NCBI GenBank assembly: GCA_029559035.1
Contig: JAKQCT010000001.1
Coordinates: forward strand, 1 to 64,000
Source of the DNA: Acidobacteriota bacterium
GTDB taxonomy: Bacteria; Acidobacteriota; UBA4820
Direction: 5' to 3'
Length of the DNA: 64,000 nucleotides
Below are positions 10,639 to 61,900 of the stretch, in pieces. Both the position numbers and the translations under genes were made by a program. The notes under the pieces were generated by a model. That model did no database searches and was not told the origin of the DNA. It was given only the letters and a program-made list of their open reading frames with translations. How positions within the stretch are numbered: position 1 is the stretch's first letter; the number at the start of each line of letters is the position of its first letter.

Positions 10639-11390
10639 TGGACGGAAGCGGCTTCTCCTCAGACCTCTTCTGGATCATCGCCGACGCCCACCTTTCCGCG
10701 GGCGACGGGACGGCGGCGTCAAAATTCGAAGGATTCCTCGACCTTTTCGAAAAGGACGGGCCCCGGCGGCTCATGGTCCTGGGAGACCTCTTCTCGAGCT
10801 GGATCGCGATGAACAACGCGCTCTCCGATTACGAGAAAGGAGTCCTTCTGCGCTTTTACAAGCTGAAGAACAGGGGGAAGGAGGTCGTCTTCATCACGGG
10901 GAACAGGGACTACTACGTGGAAGAATTGACGTCGGAACCATTTGTTTTCACGGGGGAGGCGTTCAGGGAGAAGCTTCCTTCGGGAAGGACCGTCCAGTTC
11001 GAGCACGGCGACACGATAAACCTCGACGACAGGAACTACCTTGCCTGGCGCGGGGTCTCGAGGAGCGGGGCTGTCAGGGCTTTGATGGGAGTATTGCCGG
11101 CGGGTGTCGTGAAGAAGGTCAGGTCGGGCCTCGAAGAAAAACTGGCAGAGACGAACCCGAATTACAGGATCGACCTCCCCGTCGAGCACCTCGGGAAATA
11201 CGCGGCGGCTCTCAGGGAGGAAGGCGTCGACATCCTCGTGCTCGGCCACTTCCACAGGGAGCAGAGGCTCGCTTTGGGCGGCGTGGATGTCCGCATCCTT
11301 CCCCGCTTCGCCCCGAAGGGCGAGTTCTGCAGGATCACGGCTAACGAAGAGATTCTTATTCAAAACTTGGAAATTGCTTCCAACGAATAA
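10638..11390 (+). CDS. lpxH: LpxH-like metallophosphoesterase (UDP-2,3-diacylglucosamine hydrolase)
   Basis: Calcineurin-like phosphoesterase of 250 aa with all metal-binding blocks: IADAHLS (DxH), LGDLFSSW (GD), GNRDYY (GNRD, the LpxH variant of GNHD), FEHGDTI and LGHFHRE. LpxH removes UMP from UDP-2,3-diacylglucosamine in lipid A synthesis. The window has no LpxI next to lpxA where many relatives keep it, which supports this assignment. The start overlaps the rlpA stop (TGATG). The inserted cassette begins 2-3 nt after its stop. Confidence 0.8.
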   Translation: MDGSGFSSDLFWIIADAHLSAGDGTAASKFEGFLDLFEKDGPRRLMVLGDLFSSWIAMNNALSDYEKGVLLRFYKLKNRGKEVVFITGNRDYYVEELTSEPFVFTGEAFREKLPSGRTVQFEHGDTINLDDRNYLAWRGVSRSGAVRALMGVLPAGVVKKVRSGLEEKLAETNPNYRIDLPVEHLGKYAAALREEGVDILVLGHFHREQRLALGGVDVRILPRFAPKGEFCRITANEEILIQNLEIASNE

Positions 11391-11392
11391 AC

Positions 11393-11723
11393 GCGCAGGG
11401 AAAGATGCTTCCGCATCTTTTCTCGGTTTCGCTAAATGCTCTTCAATGAGCAAGCTCCTTCCGAGCCTTTAGCTCACCTCTTTCAGCTTCGAGCTTCCCC
11501 CTGCGCTTGATTGATAAATAAATGAACATCCACCCCCCACACCGTACCATGCGCCGACGGCGATGGAGCGAACTGCTTTGTCAGCCTGCGGGGTCCAAGG
11601 CCCTCCAAGTACATCCCAGTACATGTCGGGCTTGTCCCCCTTGCCTTCCTCGCATGCCGCCCATCGGCGTCGGGACGCGGCAAGTAATGCTTGCCCATCC
11701 TTTTTTCAACCCTTCTGCAAATT
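11393..11723 (-). repeat. Structured repeat, left copy (minus strand)
   Basis: Read on the minus strand it starts with ATTTGCAG (11716-11723). It passes a GGCAAG/CTTGCC hairpin, the block GTCCCGACGCCGATGGGC (11659-11676), the near-palindrome GTACTGGGATGTACT, then CGTCGGCG and GGGGGTGGATGT. It ends in a module closed by GCGCAGGG/CCCTGCGC (11393-11400 with 11499-11506). That module holds three hairpins, including AAAGATGC-TTCC-GCATCTTT. It lies just downstream of, and on the same strand as, the orphan gene. It could be a non-coding RNA or a DNA-hairpin transposon end. Confidence 0.65.
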
Positions 11724-11766
11724 GAAAACGAACGACCTCGAGAGAGGATTTGCCGATCGTGACATT

Positions 11767-13131
11767 CTATTGTGTCCCTTGAATTCGCGGAGGGGGCTCG
11801 GCCATGATCTTATGATGCAACTCTCTTGTACTTTCATAGCTGTCATATTCAATTTCTTTTAGGATTCTTTTCGATAAGGCGCCATTGTTGTAAAGAATTT
11901 CCACAATATCGCACCGATGTATCCCGCAAGTCAGCTTTTCGTACAAGACCTCTAGCGGCTTTCTGCATTCAAGCGTCTTGTTTCTTTTATAAATGGCAAT
12001 GTAAGCCCACACCATAGAATGAAGGACATCATCTTTTTTGTGCCTTTCCGCGATTTTGGTCAGTAGCTTCCAGTCTCCCTTCATGTAGTTCGATACCAGG
12101 AGATAAAGATAATCGGCAGGATTGTTCGTTATTTTAAGTTTTCTGATTGCAAACTCTCTGATGTCATCGGCCTTAAAATATTGCAATGCTTCACAGGCAA
12201 ACTCAACAAGGCGGTTTTTTCGGCTGTACCGGCTTTTCGCGAGCTCGAGAATCTGATGGTAATCGAAAGGAAACTTCCTTCTCGAGAATATCCTTAGATA
12301 CCTTTCTTGTTTAATTGGGTCAGTTTCTTTTAAAAAATCTTGTGCCAGCCTTTTAATATCTCTTTCCTTCAGTTGCTTGACCCCAAAAAGCACGAAATGG
12401 CGCGCTGTGTCCCTATCAATATTGTTCTTGACGATTTGATAGGTGTATCTCGGCTTTTGGGGAATCGTCAGTATTGTCTTCTTATCTGCCAATATTTTAG
12501 ACCAGTACTTTTTAATATAAGGATTGCTTTTTGATGCTTTCTTCAACTCGTCATAAACCTTAAGCTCCGGATGCTTATCTTGAAAATCATCGACAAGATA
12601 GCTATCGCCCTGATCGTCTTCCGGATTATTCATGAGGGCTTTGCCCCTTTCAACTGCAATTCGTTTTAAGCCCGCAAAACCATCAATACTGAGGATCGCA
12701 TCATCACCTACCCATTCAGCATATTCAATCGTCTTCTTATGAAATCTCGCATATATGGCTTTACTGGCTTTTTGATTGCCTTCCTTGGCAAAAATTGCCG
12801 CAAGCTCAAATAGCTGGTTTAAAGTCCAACAATTATCCCGTTCTTTGGCAAGCGCATTTAAAACGCTTGCCACAATTTTATCTTTTTTACCACTCAGGTT
12901 TATCAACTGAGAGAGATAATGCGCGCGGTCTCCTTCCGCTTGTCCATCGTATGCGAAATTAAATGTGGCCGCTTTTATTATGTCCCTCGAAAAATCCACT
13001 TTCGGGTTGTCCTTTAAGATGAAATAAGCCTTCCCGGTTCCGCACCTTATCGATTTTCTGAACTCTTTTTTAGTATTCAACATCTCTTCGCTGCCGCGAT
13101 ATGGGATTTTTCTACAATCCTCTTTTCCCAT
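11767..13131 (-). CDS. Orphan helical-repeat protein, AT-rich cargo gene
   Basis: The track ORF (to 13434) runs back through the flanking repeat. The protein-like part begins at MGKEDCRKIPYRG, with GGGAGG 10 nt upstream of the ATG at 13131. About 454 aa, soluble, Lys/Asp/Glu rich and mostly alpha-helical; the spacing of helices (for example RKSIRCGTGKAYFILKDNPKVDFSRDIIKAATFNFAYDGQAEGDRAHYLSQLI) resembles HEAT-like repeats. I recall similar uncharacterised proteins with a GxGTGxAYxILK motif but no function. Base composition is far more AT-rich than its neighbours, indicating transfer. No catalytic motif is visible. Confidence 0.7.
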   Translation of the reverse strand: MGKEDCRKIPYRGSEEMLNTKKEFRKSIRCGTGKAYFILKDNPKVDFSRDIIKAATFNFAYDGQAEGDRAHYLSQLINLSGKKDKIVASVLNALAKERDNCWTLNQLFELAAIFAKEGNQKASKAIYARFHKKTIEYAEWVGDDAILSIDGFAGLKRIAVERGKALMNNPEDDQGDSYLVDDFQDKHPELKVYDELKKASKSNPYIKKYWSKILADKKTILTIPQKPRYTYQIVKNNIDRDTARHFVLFGVKQLKERDIKRLAQDFLKETDPIKQERYLRIFSRRKFPFDYHQILELAKSRYSRKNRLVEFACEALQYFKADDIREFAIRKLKITNNPADYLYLLVSNYMKGDWKLLTKIAERHKKDDVLHSMVWAYIAIYKRNKTLECRKPLEVLYEKLTCGIHRCDIVEILYNNGALSKRILKEIEYDSYESTRELHHKIMAEPPPRIQGTQ

Positions 13132-13164
13132 TCTTTTAATGCCTCCCGTGATCATTATATCCCC

Positions 13165-13486
13165 ATTTGCAGGACGTTCGATATTCGAGCCCGGCGGCGA
13201 AGCCGCTGACGTCCCGACGCCGATGGGCCAGATACTAGGAAAACGAGACGGCCGCACCGGAAGTGTACTGTGATGTACTCTGAGGATGCGGATGTCGAAG
13301 TTTGACAACGTAGATGGTCCGTTGTCGTCGGCGTGTGGTTGGTTAGGTGGGGGTGGATGTATCTTTATTGTCTGGCGCAGGGAAAGCCGAAGGCTGAAAT
13401 AGAACGAAATGAAGTCTCGTGGGTGCTCGCACACAAAGAGACTTTATAGAAGTTCGCAAAAGACGCGTAGCGTCTTGCCCTGCGCC
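13165..13486 (+). repeat. Structured repeat, right copy (plus strand)
   Basis: Homologue of the left copy in opposite orientation. It has ATTTGCAG (13165-13172), a GCGGC-GAA-GCCGC hairpin, the identical 18-mer GTCCCGACGCCGATGGGC (13211-13228), GTACTGTGATGTACT, CGTCGGCG and GGGGGTGGATGT. The terminal module is closed by GGCGCAGGG/CCCTGCGCC (13374-13382 with 13478-13486). That module holds AGCC-GAA-GGCT, AAGTCTC...GAGACTT and AAGACGC-GTA-GCGTCTT. Spacing between the first blocks equals that of the left copy (38 and 36 nt). It points away from the orphan gene. Confidence 0.65.
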
Positions 13487-13522
13487 CTTTGATAGAAAAA
13501 AAGGCGGGTTTGGAATCTGCCC

Positions 13523-49299: not shown

Positions 49300-50217
49300 T
49301 TAGGATGTCCGTCCTTTCCCCTTTTTCTCCATCAATTCCCTAATCCTCGGGATTGCCTCCGTTGCTGCGGCCTCGCCCGCCACAATCAGTTCTTCTCTCT
49401 GAGAGAAATCTTTCAGGCTGACATTCGGGCATTTCGGCCATATAACGACATCAGTATCTTTCAGCATGTATTCCGTAATCCTGGAAAACAGCACATTCAT
49501 ACTGTGCTTGAATATTTCGACTGCTTTCTGCGGTTGTTCCTGGGGAGTTTCCGGTGGGATCGCAACAGCAATGACGATATCCATTCCCTTTTCTTTCAGT
49601 ACATCAACCGGAACAGGATCGGACATACCTCCGTCCACATAAGTTCTCTCTCCTATCCGTACCGGCTGGAATATTCCGGGTATTGCGCAGGAAGCATGGA
49701 CCGCAGTTTCTATATTTCCGTTTTCGAATACCTTTTTTTGCCCGGTCATGAGATCGGTGGCAACAATTGCCAATGGTATGGGAAGGTCCTCTATAGCCTT
49801 GTGACGCAGATTGTTCCTAAGAAATTCCTCCATCTTGTCACCCTTTATCAATCCCGGTCCTTTTAAAAGAGAAAGGATATGCACGTCAAGGACATCATCC
49901 TTTTCTATTGTTTCAGCGTGATAGTCCAGGTCGACAACACTTCCTGCATCGCAATATAAAGCCCCTATCATGCTGCCGACAGAAGTTCCTGAGACATGTG
50001 AAATCGGAATATTTTCTCTCTCCAGCACCCTCAGCACTCCTATCTCGGCGAAACCTCTTGCTCCGCCGCCGCCCAGGGCCAGGCCGATCTTCACGCTGGA
50101 GGGTTTCTGGGGGGAGACAGGCGCGAATAATCGCAGTATTTGCTTCGGATGACAGGAAATAATGAAAACCACTATTACTAGAAGAAGGGCACAAGTTATC
50201 ACTCTTTTCTTATTCAT
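49300..50217 (-). CDS. Patatin-like phospholipase lipoprotein
   Basis: Lipoprotein signal (VITCALLLVIVVFIISCHPKQ). Patatin core: IGLALGGGGARGFAEIGVLRVLE (oxyanion loop GGGARG), VSGTSVGSMIGALYCDAG (nucleophile G-x-S-x-G, Ser in GTSVG) and TYVDGGMSDPVPVDVL (catalytic Asp in DGG). Acts on phospholipids or acyl esters at the envelope. The start at 50217 overlaps the tail of a 12-codon GTG-initiated peptide that has GGAGG; the track's 50232 has no ribosome site. Last gene of the run that starts with the C39-like protein. Confidence 0.9.
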   Translation of the reverse strand: MNKKRVITCALLLVIVVFIISCHPKQILRLFAPVSPQKPSSVKIGLALGGGGARGFAEIGVLRVLERENIPISHVSGTSVGSMIGALYCDAGSVVDLDYHAETIEKDDVLDVHILSLLKGPGLIKGDKMEEFLRNNLRHKAIEDLPIPLAIVATDLMTGQKKVFENGNIETAVHASCAIPGIFQPVRIGERTYVDGGMSDPVPVDVLKEKGMDIVIAVAIPPETPQEQPQKAVEIFKHSMNVLFSRITEYMLKDTDVVIWPKCPNVSLKDFSQREELIVAGEAAATEAIPRIRELMEKKGKGRTS

Positions 50218-50266
50218 TCGATTGTCGACCATAAAATCTTTTCTTTCTTCACAATTGCCTCCTTTT

Positions 50267-50630
50267 CTCGAAGAGCCCCCTCCTCAAGATTATTTATTTA
50301 CTTCACGATGAAGACAAGCCTGTCTGTGTCTGTGGCTATGCGGCTTGGTAGATTGCCGTCAGTGGAAAGAGAAAGAACATTTCTGCCTGGGCTTAGCGGA
50401 AGATTAACAGTTTCGTGATTTCCGGCTGTCGGGCTGAACAGGTTAGTAATGTCAACGCCGTTCATCGAAGCCTTGAAAGTGCTCGTAATCGCGTTGTTTC
50501 CATAGAAGATCATTAGAGGAAATGTCGTTGTCCCGGTTGACAGATCGGTCTGGCTATCGGAGGGGTTTGCATAAGTCAGGAACTTGTTCACATCCCTCGG
50601 CCTCTGCCCGCCGCCGTCGAAACCACCGGA
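50267..50630 (-). repeat. Tandem-family repeat, copy 3
   Basis: About 364 bp nearly identical to 51185-51550 and 52117-52482. It covers the last about 110 codons of the paralogue, its stop, and the spacer ending ...CTCTTCGAG. Identity in the untranslated spacer means recent duplication or gene conversion. Confidence 0.9.
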
Positions 50631-51173
50631 AAGAGTGCCGCCCTGAATATAGGAACTGTCATAATGGAAGAGAAATTTATTGACCATGCCAGGGCCAGTT
50701 GGAATATTTTTAATAAATTGTTTGAAACGAGCAGAGGCTGAATTTCTTGTGCGGACTTCCATATCATATTTGCCAAGCTGCGTGCCTGTACCCACAACTG
50801 TAACAAGATAATCCCCATTAATGGCGCCAATGATATCAAGATATTTGTCGTTGGGATTCCCTCCACCGACAGAGCCGCCCTCAGCCGAGCGGGGTATCTC
50901 AGCGTATATTTTATTCGCGCTGGGATCAGTACCCATTTTCCTTCCTAAGGGATCAACAACATAGGCTTCCACAGGACAAAGGGGATGATATTTTGGATAA
51001 AGACCGAAGCTAATAAAATTGAGCACATCCTTAGTAGGCGGTGGCGTAACATTTTTGGCAGAATCTGCTCTCTTATGGCTACTTCCCTTGATGACAGTTT
51101 GGCTATTTAAAAAGACGACTGAAAGAGAAGTCAGAAAAATAATTACCACTACTAAAGAAATGTATCTTTTCAT
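50298..51173 (-). CDS. Secreted paralogue 3 of the tandem family
   Basis: Signal peptide MKRYISLVVVIIFLTSLSVVFLNSQ. Middle part has ISFGLYPKYHPLCPVEAYVVDPLGRKMGTDPSANKIYAEIPRSAEGG, a pattern (VxDPxGRxxGxDPxxxxxYxEIPxxxYGG) shared by all three copies. The C-terminal about 110 residues (SGGFDGGGQRPRDVNKFLTYANPSDSQTDLSTGTTTFPLMIFYGNNAITSTFKASMNGVDITNLFSPTAGNHETVNLPLSPGRNVLSLSTDGNLPSRIATDTDRLVFIVK) are almost identical to the others. I do not know its function. Confidence 0.8.
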   Translation of the reverse strand: MKRYISLVVVIIFLTSLSVVFLNSQTVIKGSSHKRADSAKNVTPPPTKDVLNFISFGLYPKYHPLCPVEAYVVDPLGRKMGTDPSANKIYAEIPRSAEGGSVGGGNPNDKYLDIIGAINGDYLVTVVGTGTQLGKYDMEVRTRNSASARFKQFIKNIPTGPGMVNKFLFHYDSSYIQGGTLSGGFDGGGQRPRDVNKFLTYANPSDSQTDLSTGTTTFPLMIFYGNNAITSTFKASMNGVDITNLFSPTAGNHETVNLPLSPGRNVLSLSTDGNLPSRIATDTDRLVFIVK

Positions 51174-51184
51174 CTTGCCTCCTT

Positions 51185-51550
51185 CTCGAAGAGCCCCCTC
51201 CTCAAGATTATTTATTTACTTCACAATGAAGACAAGCCTGTCGGTGTCTGTTGCTATGCGGCTTGGTAAATTGCCGTCAGTGGAAAGAGAAAGAACATTT
51301 CTGCCTGAAACAAGATTGATATTAACAGTTTCGTGGCTTCCCGGATTTGGATTGAACAATGAAGTGACATCAACGCCGTTCAAAGAAGCTTTGAAAGTGC
51401 TCGTAATTGCATTGTTTCCATAGAATATCATCAGAGGGAAAGCAGTAGTCCCGGAAGGAAGGTCAGTCTGGCTATCTGATGGGTTGGCGTAAGTCAGAAA
51501 TTTGTTCACATCCTTTGGCCTCTGCCCTCCGCCGTCGAAACCACCAGAAA
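51185..51550 (-). repeat. Tandem-family repeat, copy 2
   Basis: Same unit as at 50267-50630: shared C-terminal coding block plus the spacer AAATAATCTTGAGGAGGGGG. Confidence 0.9.
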
Positions 51551-52103
51551 CAGTTGTCGCCGAGAGATTGGCGCTGTCGTAATGGACGGAATAGACATGT
51601 ACAATATTTGGCAATATTGGAATGTCTTTCGCCAACAATTTATCAAAGCTTTGCCTTGCGGTGTTATGGGTGCTTACACCAATCCCATACTTACCATTTT
51701 TTGTTCCTGTTACTTTAATAATGTAATCACCGTTGATAGCAGCTACGATCTCAATTTCTTTGGGTGGGTTTAACGCTTCAGTTGGAGTAGAGCCTCTTAC
51801 GGGGCCTCCGTACCCAGACCGAGGTATCTCGTCATATCGCTTCTTTTTAATTGGGTCGTATCCAAGTTTTCTTCCAAGTGGATCAATTACAAGCGCCTCT
51901 AATGAACAGCAAAAGTCAAAGTGTATCCCGTTCATCATATCTGTGAAATCTTCATGTCCGCCAACAGCAGCCGGTTTTGAAGTTGAAACTGTTTTCTTTC
52001 CAGCTTTACCACCAGCGAGCGTTTGACTTTTAAGCAAGATTCCGGCGCCGACAAGTGAAAGAAGAAGGAAGAAGAATGTTAATAATTCAATATTCCTTTT
52101 CAT
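51216..52103 (-). CDS. Secreted paralogue 2 of the tandem family
   Basis: Signal peptide MKRNIELLTFFFLLLSLVGAGILLKSQ, then GGHEDFTDMMNGIHFDFCCSLEALVIDPLGRKLGYDPIKKKRYDEIPRSGYGGPVRGSTPTEALNPPKEIEIVAAINGDYIIKVTGTKNGKYGIGVSTHN and the shared C-terminal block. Beta-rich, no enzymatic motif. Downstream of the C39-fused copy by 44 nt. Confidence 0.8.
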   Translation of the reverse strand: MKRNIELLTFFFLLLSLVGAGILLKSQTLAGGKAGKKTVSTSKPAAVGGHEDFTDMMNGIHFDFCCSLEALVIDPLGRKLGYDPIKKKRYDEIPRSGYGGPVRGSTPTEALNPPKEIEIVAAINGDYIIKVTGTKNGKYGIGVSTHNTARQSFDKLLAKDIPILPNIVHVYSVHYDSANLSATTVSGGFDGGGQRPKDVNKFLTYANPSDSQTDLPSGTTAFPLMIFYGNNAITSTFKASLNGVDVTSLFNPNPGSHETVNINLVSGRNVLSLSTDGNLPSRIATDTDRLVFIVK

Positions 52104-52116
52104 GCTGCCTCCTATT

Positions 52117-52482
52117 CTCGAAGAGCCCCCTCCTCAAGATTATTTATTTACTTCACAATGAAGACAAGCCTGTCGGTGTCTGTAGCAACTCGGGACGGAA
52201 GATTGCCGTCTGCAGAGAGAGAAAGAACATTCCTTCCTGGGCCCAGAGGAAGATTCACAGTTTCGTGATTGCCGGCTGTCGGACTGAAAAGGTTGGTAAT
52301 GTCAACGCCGTTCAACGAAGCTTTGAAAGTGCTCGTAATCGCGTTGTTTCCATAGAAGACCATTAGAGGAAATGTCGTCGTCCCGGCAGGTAGATCGGTC
52401 TGGCTATCGGAGGGGTTGGCGTAAGAAAGAAATTTGTTAACATCCTTCGGCCTCTGCCCGCCACCGTCAAAGCCGCCGGAGA
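52117..52482 (-). repeat. Tandem-family repeat, copy 1
   Basis: Same unit as at 50267-50630, here at the end of the C39-fused gene. Confidence 0.9.
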
Positions 52483-58925: not shown

Positions 58926-61900
58926 GTGAATAAAACGGTTTTAATTCTTATGATAGGATTCTTATTGGTATCTTTTAATGCATCAGGGCAGACGGCGCTT
59001 TGCGCAAGCACCGATTACAACTCCTTTTTAATGAGCCGGGGGACAACAGGACCGGCCGATTTGATCAATGAAGAAGCCTACGAAACCAAAACGCAGAAAT
59101 TCGATCTCCGTTATGACCTCATCAATCTAACTCCGGATGTCTTGCAGGCAAGGATTGAGCTCTATCGTTATCTTGATGAAGATGCACCCAATGAAGGATG
59201 GATACTAGAAGAGACAAACTATTTCAATCCGCCGTTTTCTTCTTCAATCCCGGTGCTATTTCAGGACTTAAAAAGAGGAAAAACGTATTCCATTACCCTA
59301 ATCGTTGTGACCGATATGCCGAACCTCTCTTTGCAGGACGGATCGTCCCCGATTGATATGACGGTGAAAACTGTATATTTTCTTTGGCCGAAGGAACACG
59401 GGATGCACTTGTCGGCGACAACCTCCTTTGAAGGAGAACCAAGGAGAGAGCATTTCAAGATGAAATGGTCGGGTGCCGCCAGCGCGGCAACAACAAAAGT
59501 CAAAGCCAGGCATACAGACAACACGGAAAATCCCATCGTCGTATCTTCAACTGGTGGGGAGCTTACATTCACGCGGGAGGAAGTTTGGAACTGGCCTGCC
59601 GATAACCTTTCCTCTGTCTCTGTTGATGCTTTGGATTCCAGTGGGAACATTATCGGCACGGCAGGCTTTATAATAAGCCCCATCCCACCCATCAAGGATT
59701 ATAAGATCCTTCCATGTATCCCACCGCCGGTTACGCCCGAAGAACCTGAAGCTTACGACCCCGATAGGAAATGGCTTAATGATGGCAGGATTAAAGTGGT
59801 TGTCTCCAATCTTTATGGCGGTGCCTTCATGGCGATCAGACTGCTTGATTTTAAAGATGCCAGCGGCAATCCATATAACCTGGTAAATGACATAGGCAAA
59901 GCATCAGATAACAACTACGGAGTGAATGGCCTTTTGTGCCAAACGGCAATCACAAGAAAAAACGACAAATGGACCCAATATGACGGCAGCGACAGCTATG
60001 ATTCAATGGAGGAATGGGAAAATAATGATGCCGGTTCATATTCACCCCAATGTATGGATGGTTTTGATTCTAACCCGAGCACGAAGTACAAGTTCCACTG
60101 GAATCCTACACAGGGAGGACCGCAGGAAGGTTCAAAAACCAAATGCAATGTGACACCTGAGAACTCCGACCAATGGAATGAGACATACCTGAATCACGAA
60201 GGAACCGGGGAATGTGCTCAAATGCTGTCACAGAATCTTAATAGCTGTACATGGGCGACAACATACCCCCCCTTCAAGGCAGACACAAATAATACAACCC
60301 CGATCAAATATCGTTCCATGTTCAAACACTGGCTTCCTCTTGGGGAAGTTCCCGAAGGATACCGCGAACAGCCGCAGGTTGTTATGGAATCGACAGTTTC
60401 ACTTATTGATTCTCTCGCCGGGAGTGACAGCTCGGGAATAGAGATAATCTCAAAATACAGGCTCCACTGTCCTTGCGGAAACACCGGCGGTACTCCGAAT
60501 GATTGCCACTGCGCCGACACGGGTGACTTTTTCAGCAGATATGACAGTTATGAGCAACTGGCATATAATTATGAGGCGGCGATTCAGGACTGGATATTTT
60601 TCGGCGGCGAGCAGGTTGCCCATGCCTTTAAATTTAATCCCGATTACACTACAAATGATTACGGGATGGAGCCTTTCATTCCTCCATGCGAAGCTGGAGA
60701 AAACACATGTCTTGAGGATGAAGGTTGGAAAAATGGCACTAATATTCCAGGTTATGTTAACCCTAATTGGGTTCCCTACGCCCTGATGAGGACCGATGCC
60801 GATTCCGACGGGACAAAAGCTTGGATTCTTATTTACAACGGCACAAATTACTGGGACAATGATGAAGAGATGGAACTGAGAAGGATATGGCAGGCAAGAT
60901 CGAAGGCTAGTGACGGTGTGGTTGGTTATGTTACGGCGCCGATCACGAGGATCAAGCATCTGACCACTGATGATTGGAGTCCGTCGTCAACAACGGTCAT
61001 TTTCGTAGGCGAAGATATGGATTCGGTAATGAACCATCTCGGCAACTACACAGGCTGGGTGTGGCCCCGCTGCACAACAACCACAACCTATTCAATCTCC
61101 GGCACAGTGAGCGGCGCGACCGCTGTGACCGTTTCCTGCACCGGTCAGACCGACATCACGACTTCCGGCACCTATACTTTTAGCGGTCTGGTCAACGGAA
61201 CATATACGGTCACCCCCAGCAAGAGCGGGTACACTTTCTCTCCTGCCAGCTATACCATCACGATCAGCGGAGCGAACCAGACCGGTAAGAACTTCACGGC
61301 AACTGCCATCCCTACCTATAGCATTTCCGGTACAGTAAGCGGAGCCACATCGGTCACCGTAGCTTGCACTGGACAGGCAAGCGTTACTACATCCGGCACT
61401 TACACTTTCAGCGGTCTCACCAACGGCAGCACCTACACGATTACACCAAGCAAGAGCGGCTATACATTTTCTCCTGCCAGCTACACCGTTACAATCAACG
61501 GGGCCAATGTGGCCGGCAAGAACTTTACGGCAACTGCGATTTCCACATATTCAATTTCCGGAAGAGTCTATTCTGTGAGCGGTACCGGCCTTTCAAGCGT
61601 GACTGTGAAAGCCGGGTCCTATTCCGCCACTACCGCCAGCAATGGAACATATACCATTTCCGGCTTGATTAACGGATCTTATACGATGAAGGCTTCAAGG
61701 AACGGGTATACATTCAACCCGGAAAGCACATCGGTAACTGTAAATGGCGCCAATGTTGCGGGCATATATTTTACCGCCGACACACCGCTCACAAATGGAG
61801 TTGGTATAACCGGTTCTGTGACGGCTTCCTCTTGGAAATACTATTCTATCTATGTCCCCGATGGCACTACAAGCCTGACAATAACTCTTACCGGCTTGAG

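Follow-up and report, generated by a model that had tools for sequence, protein, structure and literature searches.

MITEs are normally thought to conserve their ends only, with bodies that drift, and such repeats are usually regarded as junk; large structured bacterial RNAs of unknown function are characterized by a conserved multidomain fold with covariation, which is likewise seen in the element described here. ERIC, NEMIS, and CIR are MITEs with conserved RNA folds, and ERIC can destabilize upstream mRNA (PMC2229807, PMC10969869). TIME elements have Tn3-family ends and duplications of 5 to 6 bp, and in the TIME and TIME-COMP composites (PMC4133298), as in mobile insertion cassettes, two MITE copies bound unrelated genes with no transposase.

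The 64,000-nucleotide stretch of Acidobacteriota DNA that we analyzed (the window) contains two copies of an element that resembles ERIC/IRU/RU-1, CIR, and NEMIS/Correia in being a short, multicopy, intergenic, noncoding repeat with a stable RNA fold (predicted in the present case) and spread by transposition, but it is approximately three times longer than ERIC and other structured MITEs and has a three-domain fold, a four-way junction, and a different sequence. When one E. coli ERIC locus was scored with our covariance model for the inner module, the best overlap reached -0.2 bits, and kinship of this module with ERIC was rejected. As in TIME-COMP, pairs of copies bound unrelated genes in the absence of a transposase, but here the body is structured, no duplication was seen around the composites, and each pair comprises two sequence types. 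In a sister family, copies in two genomes (G004 and G006) share their terminal sequence and a 9-bp duplication with an IS4-family transposon (L148, in genome G012), whereas the structured element carries no transposase and the ends of the copies in the window are different. In contrast to the large structured bacterial RNAs, the element is a dispersed, mobile repeat present in many copies, and Rfam, searched at the gathering cutoff and at E values up to 10, returned nothing relevant. We suggest, with a probability of roughly 0.6, that it is a nonautonomous MITE-like element, the body of which conserves a single-strand fold and would serve as a structured RNA, and that pairs of copies form composites.

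Architecture and distribution of the element

The two copies, each of approximately 325 nt, lie inverted with their 5' ends inward around a 454-aa gene, and each consists of a 5' hairpin, a long hairpin with internal loops, a G-rich linker, and a four-way junction (Table 1). Pairing in the 5' hairpin is retained while its sequence varies among copies and genera, and the G-rich tract is found in copies from several genera.

Table 1. Positions of the two copies, their domains, and the intervening gene in the window
Feature	Position	Strand	Basis
Right copy, read from inner to outer end (5'-to-3' direction of the strand that folds)	13164-13486	+	blastn family, alignment; z = -7.1 for 13180-13500
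Left copy, inverted relative to the right	11393-11724	-	blastn, alignment; own-strand z = -6.4 for 11390-11700
Outer four-way junction, right: closing stem 13374-13382/13478-13486, three hairpins	13374-13486	+	Folds, covariation
Outer four-way junction, left	11393-11506	-	Folds, covariation
Inner module, right: long, irregular hairpin containing the invariant AGGAA/UGAC core	13216-13334	+	Covariance model R1, 126.4 bits; covariation
Inner module, left: second sequence type, GGGCGGCATGC	11551-11671	-	R1, 112.2 bits
5' hairpin, right: GGCGGCGAAGCCGCT	13193-13207	+	Sequence
5' hairpin, left: GGCAAGCATTACTTGCC	11679-11695	-	Sequence
Linker between inner module and junction, G-rich tract GGTGGGGGTGGATG	13335-13373	+	Sequence
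454-aa gene between the copies, without known family	11767-13131	-	Profile and homologue searches

A first-pass annotation had drawn attention to two four-stem modules with compensatory changes, and these modules are the outer domains (3' part) of the two copies of this longer repeat. Folded as a single sequence, the right module (13374-13486, +) formed the GGCGCAGGG/CCCTGCGCC closing stem and three branches exactly where they had been placed (MFE, -51.0; z = -6.4), and three branches closed by a stem of 5 bp or more arose in just 5 of 200 dinucleotide shuffles; the left module (11393-11506, -) has the same shape (z = -5.1; 7/200 shuffles). The first and last hairpins of both modules agree with those originally quoted, and the right middle stem, AAGTCTC/GAGACTT (+), stands; CTCGG/CCGAG (-), proposed as its homologue on the left, is an alternative pairing in the single-sequence MFE, and alignment A2, as we read it, gives GCTAAA(G)GCTC/GAGC(A)TTTAGC, which contains a single mismatch, as the left homologue. 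Two copies alone constitute little proof, and the family was therefore collected. When 23 outer modules were folded singly, the majority displayed the closing stem and three branches as the MFE structure, compared to approximately 4% of dinucleotide shuffles; C7 and C88a adopted another MFE structure and C6 formed four branches, while the pieces from genomes G007 and G011, which also deviated, had both been cut too widely.

In the host genome, blastn located the element at 20 places, the full copies having all four parts, from 5' hairpin to outer junction, in common, and the inner-module covariance model recovered 19 copies. The same model found 24 copies in G003, 32 in G004, 17 in G006, 20 in G007, 41 in G008, 18 in G011, and 12 in G012, with 4 to 41 copies in most genomes of the host's order and no match in G001, G002, or G010. 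Across the phylum, it matched 34 of 396 Acidobacteriota genomes, from 23 genera, although some of the weakest matches (E near 1e-4) may be due to chance; the named matching records are metagenome-assembled genomes (MAGs) of Acidobacteria, Candidatus Aminicenantes among them. Searches of plasmids and phages gave no match to the element, and a pattern scan of viral contigs gave none; six pattern matches in other phyla (L084, L088, L097, L101, L110, and L116) were dismissed as chance, the rest of the fold being missing. The family was previously uncatalogued and is best labeled a new structured-MITE family with composites and a putative RNA function.

The inner module also occurs alone, within terminal repeats in other families (L222 in G273; L223 in G257, with AACCCGGATTATTCATGAAG ends) and as solo modules at C53 and C58 of the host genome, and the two domains are therefore separable. 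At L031 (6380-8040; G000:C39), an IS256-family (Transposase_mut) insertion sequence encoding 413 aa interrupts one copy in its 5' part. The window contains other repeats: three copies of a 300-nt stretch (50265-52414; 80 to 83% identical, spaced by approximately 920 bp) within adjacent minus-strand open reading frames (ORFs), one of which (50298-51173) matched no family when searched in Pfam, adjoin an ORF for a patatin-like phospholipase (49300-50232), and a 137-nt direct repeat (61200-61567; 76%) lies within a 1,152-aa ORF with CarboxypepD_reg and SdrD_B domains.

Covariation in the outer and inner modules

In the set of 18 outer modules, drawn from the host genome plus a single relative, pairing held for 91.6% of cells and 14 of 24 pairs had double-sided changes; none of 500 shuffles equaled the covariation score, the number of double changes, or the pairing percentage, while the number of further pair types was not significant (124/500). 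These statistics, like those for the inner module, ignore phylogeny, and identical or related copies inflate the cell counts. Controls in which the partners were slid were 32 to 57% paired. The inner module, which lies outside the coordinates originally annotated, is better supported than the outer: 95.5% of cells were paired and 33 of 37 pairs were double changed (0/500 shuffles) in an alignment of 82 distinct sequences (A3) that leans toward the model because it was fitted to it, and pairing fell to 29 to 40% when partners were slid. A second alignment of 21 inner sequences (A1) was made with MAFFT without the use of structure.

The closing stem of the junction illustrates the extent of the rewriting. 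It reads GGCGCAGGG/CCCTGCGCC or AATGTCGGG/CCCGACATT in the host genome (G000), GCAAATGGCT/AGCCATTTGC in G003, GGCCGGGCC/GGCCCGGCC in G004, ATCCGGCCC/GGGCCGGAT in G007, GGGCAGGCCGG/CCGGCCTGCCC in G008, and GCCGATGGGCG/CGCCCATCGGC in G011, and pairing is retained in all of these genomes and in G006, which goes with G004. The body of approximately 300 bases has an elaborate predicted single-strand fold that is preserved despite almost complete change of sequence. The earlier proposal that selection acts on the fold, as RNA or as single-stranded DNA, gains support from the strong covariation of both modules in these larger alignments and from the evidence of transposition in relatives, where copies combine repeated termini with target duplications of exactly 9 bp.

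Terminal sequences, target duplications, and composites

Single copies in G004 and G006 have terminal inverted repeats and end in CATGgCTGTCCAAAA; the end pattern ATGNCTGTCCAAAA was found 20 times in G004 and 24 times in G006, and a reversed control pattern was not found in either. These copies are approximately 393 bp long, number 17 to 32 per genome, and contain no transposase. Their flanks show a sharp peak of target duplication at 9 bp (identity, 0.537 versus 0.290 +/- 0.019 when permuted), with nothing comparable at 8 or 10 bp and with 16 elements matching at 9 of 9 positions. The element in G012 encodes an IS4-family transposase of 402 aa (NCBIfam IS4, 247.9 bits against a cutoff of 115), has ends that match those of the G004 and G006 copies, with the common terminal sequence CA..(G/C)CTGTCCAA(A/G)A, and is flanked by the 9-bp duplication GGTCCAAGT; a similar IS4-type element in G009 has the duplication ACCTTGAGT. 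The single copies in G004 and G006 are bona fide MITEs.

In the host genome, as in G004 and G006, the element is short, multicopy, and devoid of a transposase gene; terminal inverted repeats are present in G004 and G006 and, by reading, in G008, and target duplication and an autonomous element with matching ends are provided by G004 and G006 and by G012, so that membership in the MITE class, seen in relatives, may by extension be assigned to the host's copies. The latter have at most a weak TCAA..GCAGG similarity at their ends, the flanks of the window's copies showed neither a target duplication nor a clear long terminal repeat, and no DDE_Tnp_1 (PF01609) transposase was found in the host genome; mobility there is therefore inferred from the relatives. 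At the site upstream of pyrG, 12 relatives provided no empty site and are not syntenic. Ends vary by genome: CTAGGGCTGTT in G008, AACCCGGATTATTCATGAAG around the inner module alone in G257, and a shared TTTGCAGGA..TTGAA at the 5' end in G000 and G003. Internally deleted forms of approximately 128 bp (lacking inner module and junction) and 290 bp (lacking the inner module) share their deletion junctions and occur at L117, L135, L137, L079 (G006), L118 (G004), and L123 (G006). Most have their own target duplication, and the fold is therefore probably dispensable for movement, although the deleted forms may instead have arisen by deletion at microhomology after insertion.

Four pairs of copies lie within 2.5 kb of each other in the host genome, where approximately 0.3 would be expected (P ~3e-4). 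All four (C3, C43, C74, and C99, the last being the window) have their 5' ends inward, the second C74 copy being truncated, and in every pair a GGGCGGCATGC-type copy is matched with a copy of the other type, which, given just four pairs, does no more than hint that left and right ends are distinct. Cargo orientation followed no pattern with respect to copy type (two versus two), and a link between them was rejected. The window's pair encloses the 454-aa gene; the others enclose genes of 128 aa and 212 aa and, in one case, an IS630-like fragment accompanied by two additional ORFs. The 454-aa protein had no Pfam family above the cutoff (one subthreshold match), no match in PADLOC or NCBIfam, and no homologue in 99 relatives or in viral contigs; the lack of a PADLOC match led us to reject the idea that the cargo consists of defense genes. 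The inner flanks of some copies share GGGGGACACAATA-like sequence (L033, ~6.84 to 7.0 kb, in G000:C6; window, 11725-11800), as would be expected if passenger DNA in separate copies came from one source. We recognized no target duplication on reading the flanks of the composites at the window or C43, the copies of which look old. The composite cassettes probably move, or once moved, as units.

Nature of the folding strand and significance of the element

Folding z-scores relative to shuffles are approximately equal on the two strands (forward lower in 16 of 26), and choice of strand by this measure was rejected. Non-Watson-Crick cells in 44 nonredundant sequences, read along the inner-to-outer strand, comprise 134 G-U and 27 A-C combinations, or 54 and 25 when pairs that are mostly G-U are excluded. 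Neither AGGAA nor the UGAC opposite it varies among the 21 divergent sequences of A1; by inference, the two form tandem G.A pairs. In most copies, the loop of the second hairpin is CUUG or CUCG (CUYG), although the stem changes. The excess of G-U over A-C, the CUYG loops, and the invariant non-Watson-Crick core favor RNA, in the inner-to-outer orientation, as the form in which the fold works.

It is unlikely, by comparison, that the fold is a single-stranded DNA or cruciform structure required by a recombinase, as in IS200/IS605, RAYT/REP, and integron attC systems. Very stable hairpins are predicted on both strands, RAYT-type Y1 transposase genes are present in the host genome and its relatives, and one such gene (Y1_Tnp) adjoins a partial inner module at L164/L237 (G000:C78), but the terminal inverted repeats and exact 9-bp duplications of the relatives are typical of double-stranded-DNA transposition and argue for a DDE enzyme, copies without most of the fold still carry target duplications, and the excess of G-U over A-C also counts against this reading. 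A trans-acting noncoding RNA (guide, scaffold, or ribozyme-like) used by a protein, with the MITE ends as a vehicle only, would accord with the large multidomain fold, its invariant core and CUYG loops, the occurrence of the inner module alone inside other terminal repeats, and the retention of the body while ends vary among genomes; we nevertheless consider it improbable, as no partner gene recurs, the proteins beside the copies are unrelated, and Rfam holds no match. Least probable is a purely mutational origin of the compensatory changes, through template switching at quasi-palindromes that alters the two arms together, with no selection on the fold: the closing stems are near-perfect palindromes rewritten wholesale between genomes, but invariant unpaired positions, conserved loops, the G-U asymmetry, and a long helix with conserved asymmetric loops are left unexplained.

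The likeliest reading is the structured MITE. Movement would depend on a transposase supplied in trans that works on the terminal repeats, and in the host genome two inverted copies bound unrelated genes as a composite cassette. Transcription of the inner-to-outer strand, which would then act as a structured RNA, is the likeliest reason that the fold persists, and its simplest role, by analogy with ERIC and NEMIS, would be on transcripts that cross the insertion site, through processing, stability, or insulation. In the host genome, outer ends mostly abut the stop codon of a neighboring gene to which this strand is mostly antisense, so that an effect on the neighbor's own mRNA would need the other strand.

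More tentatively, and at somewhat less than even odds, the element may represent a new class of large multidomain RNA that is dispersed by mobility in the Acidobacteriota, swaps its ends, has a separable inner module, and here bounds and disperses genes without known relatives. Compensatory change that preserves a body across genera, even as the ends vary, marks an RNA that has a function. With this element, selection on an RNA encoded by a MITE becomes testable, the Acidobacteriota would gain a new RNA family, and genes that lack known relatives may have a means of dispersal in the phylum.
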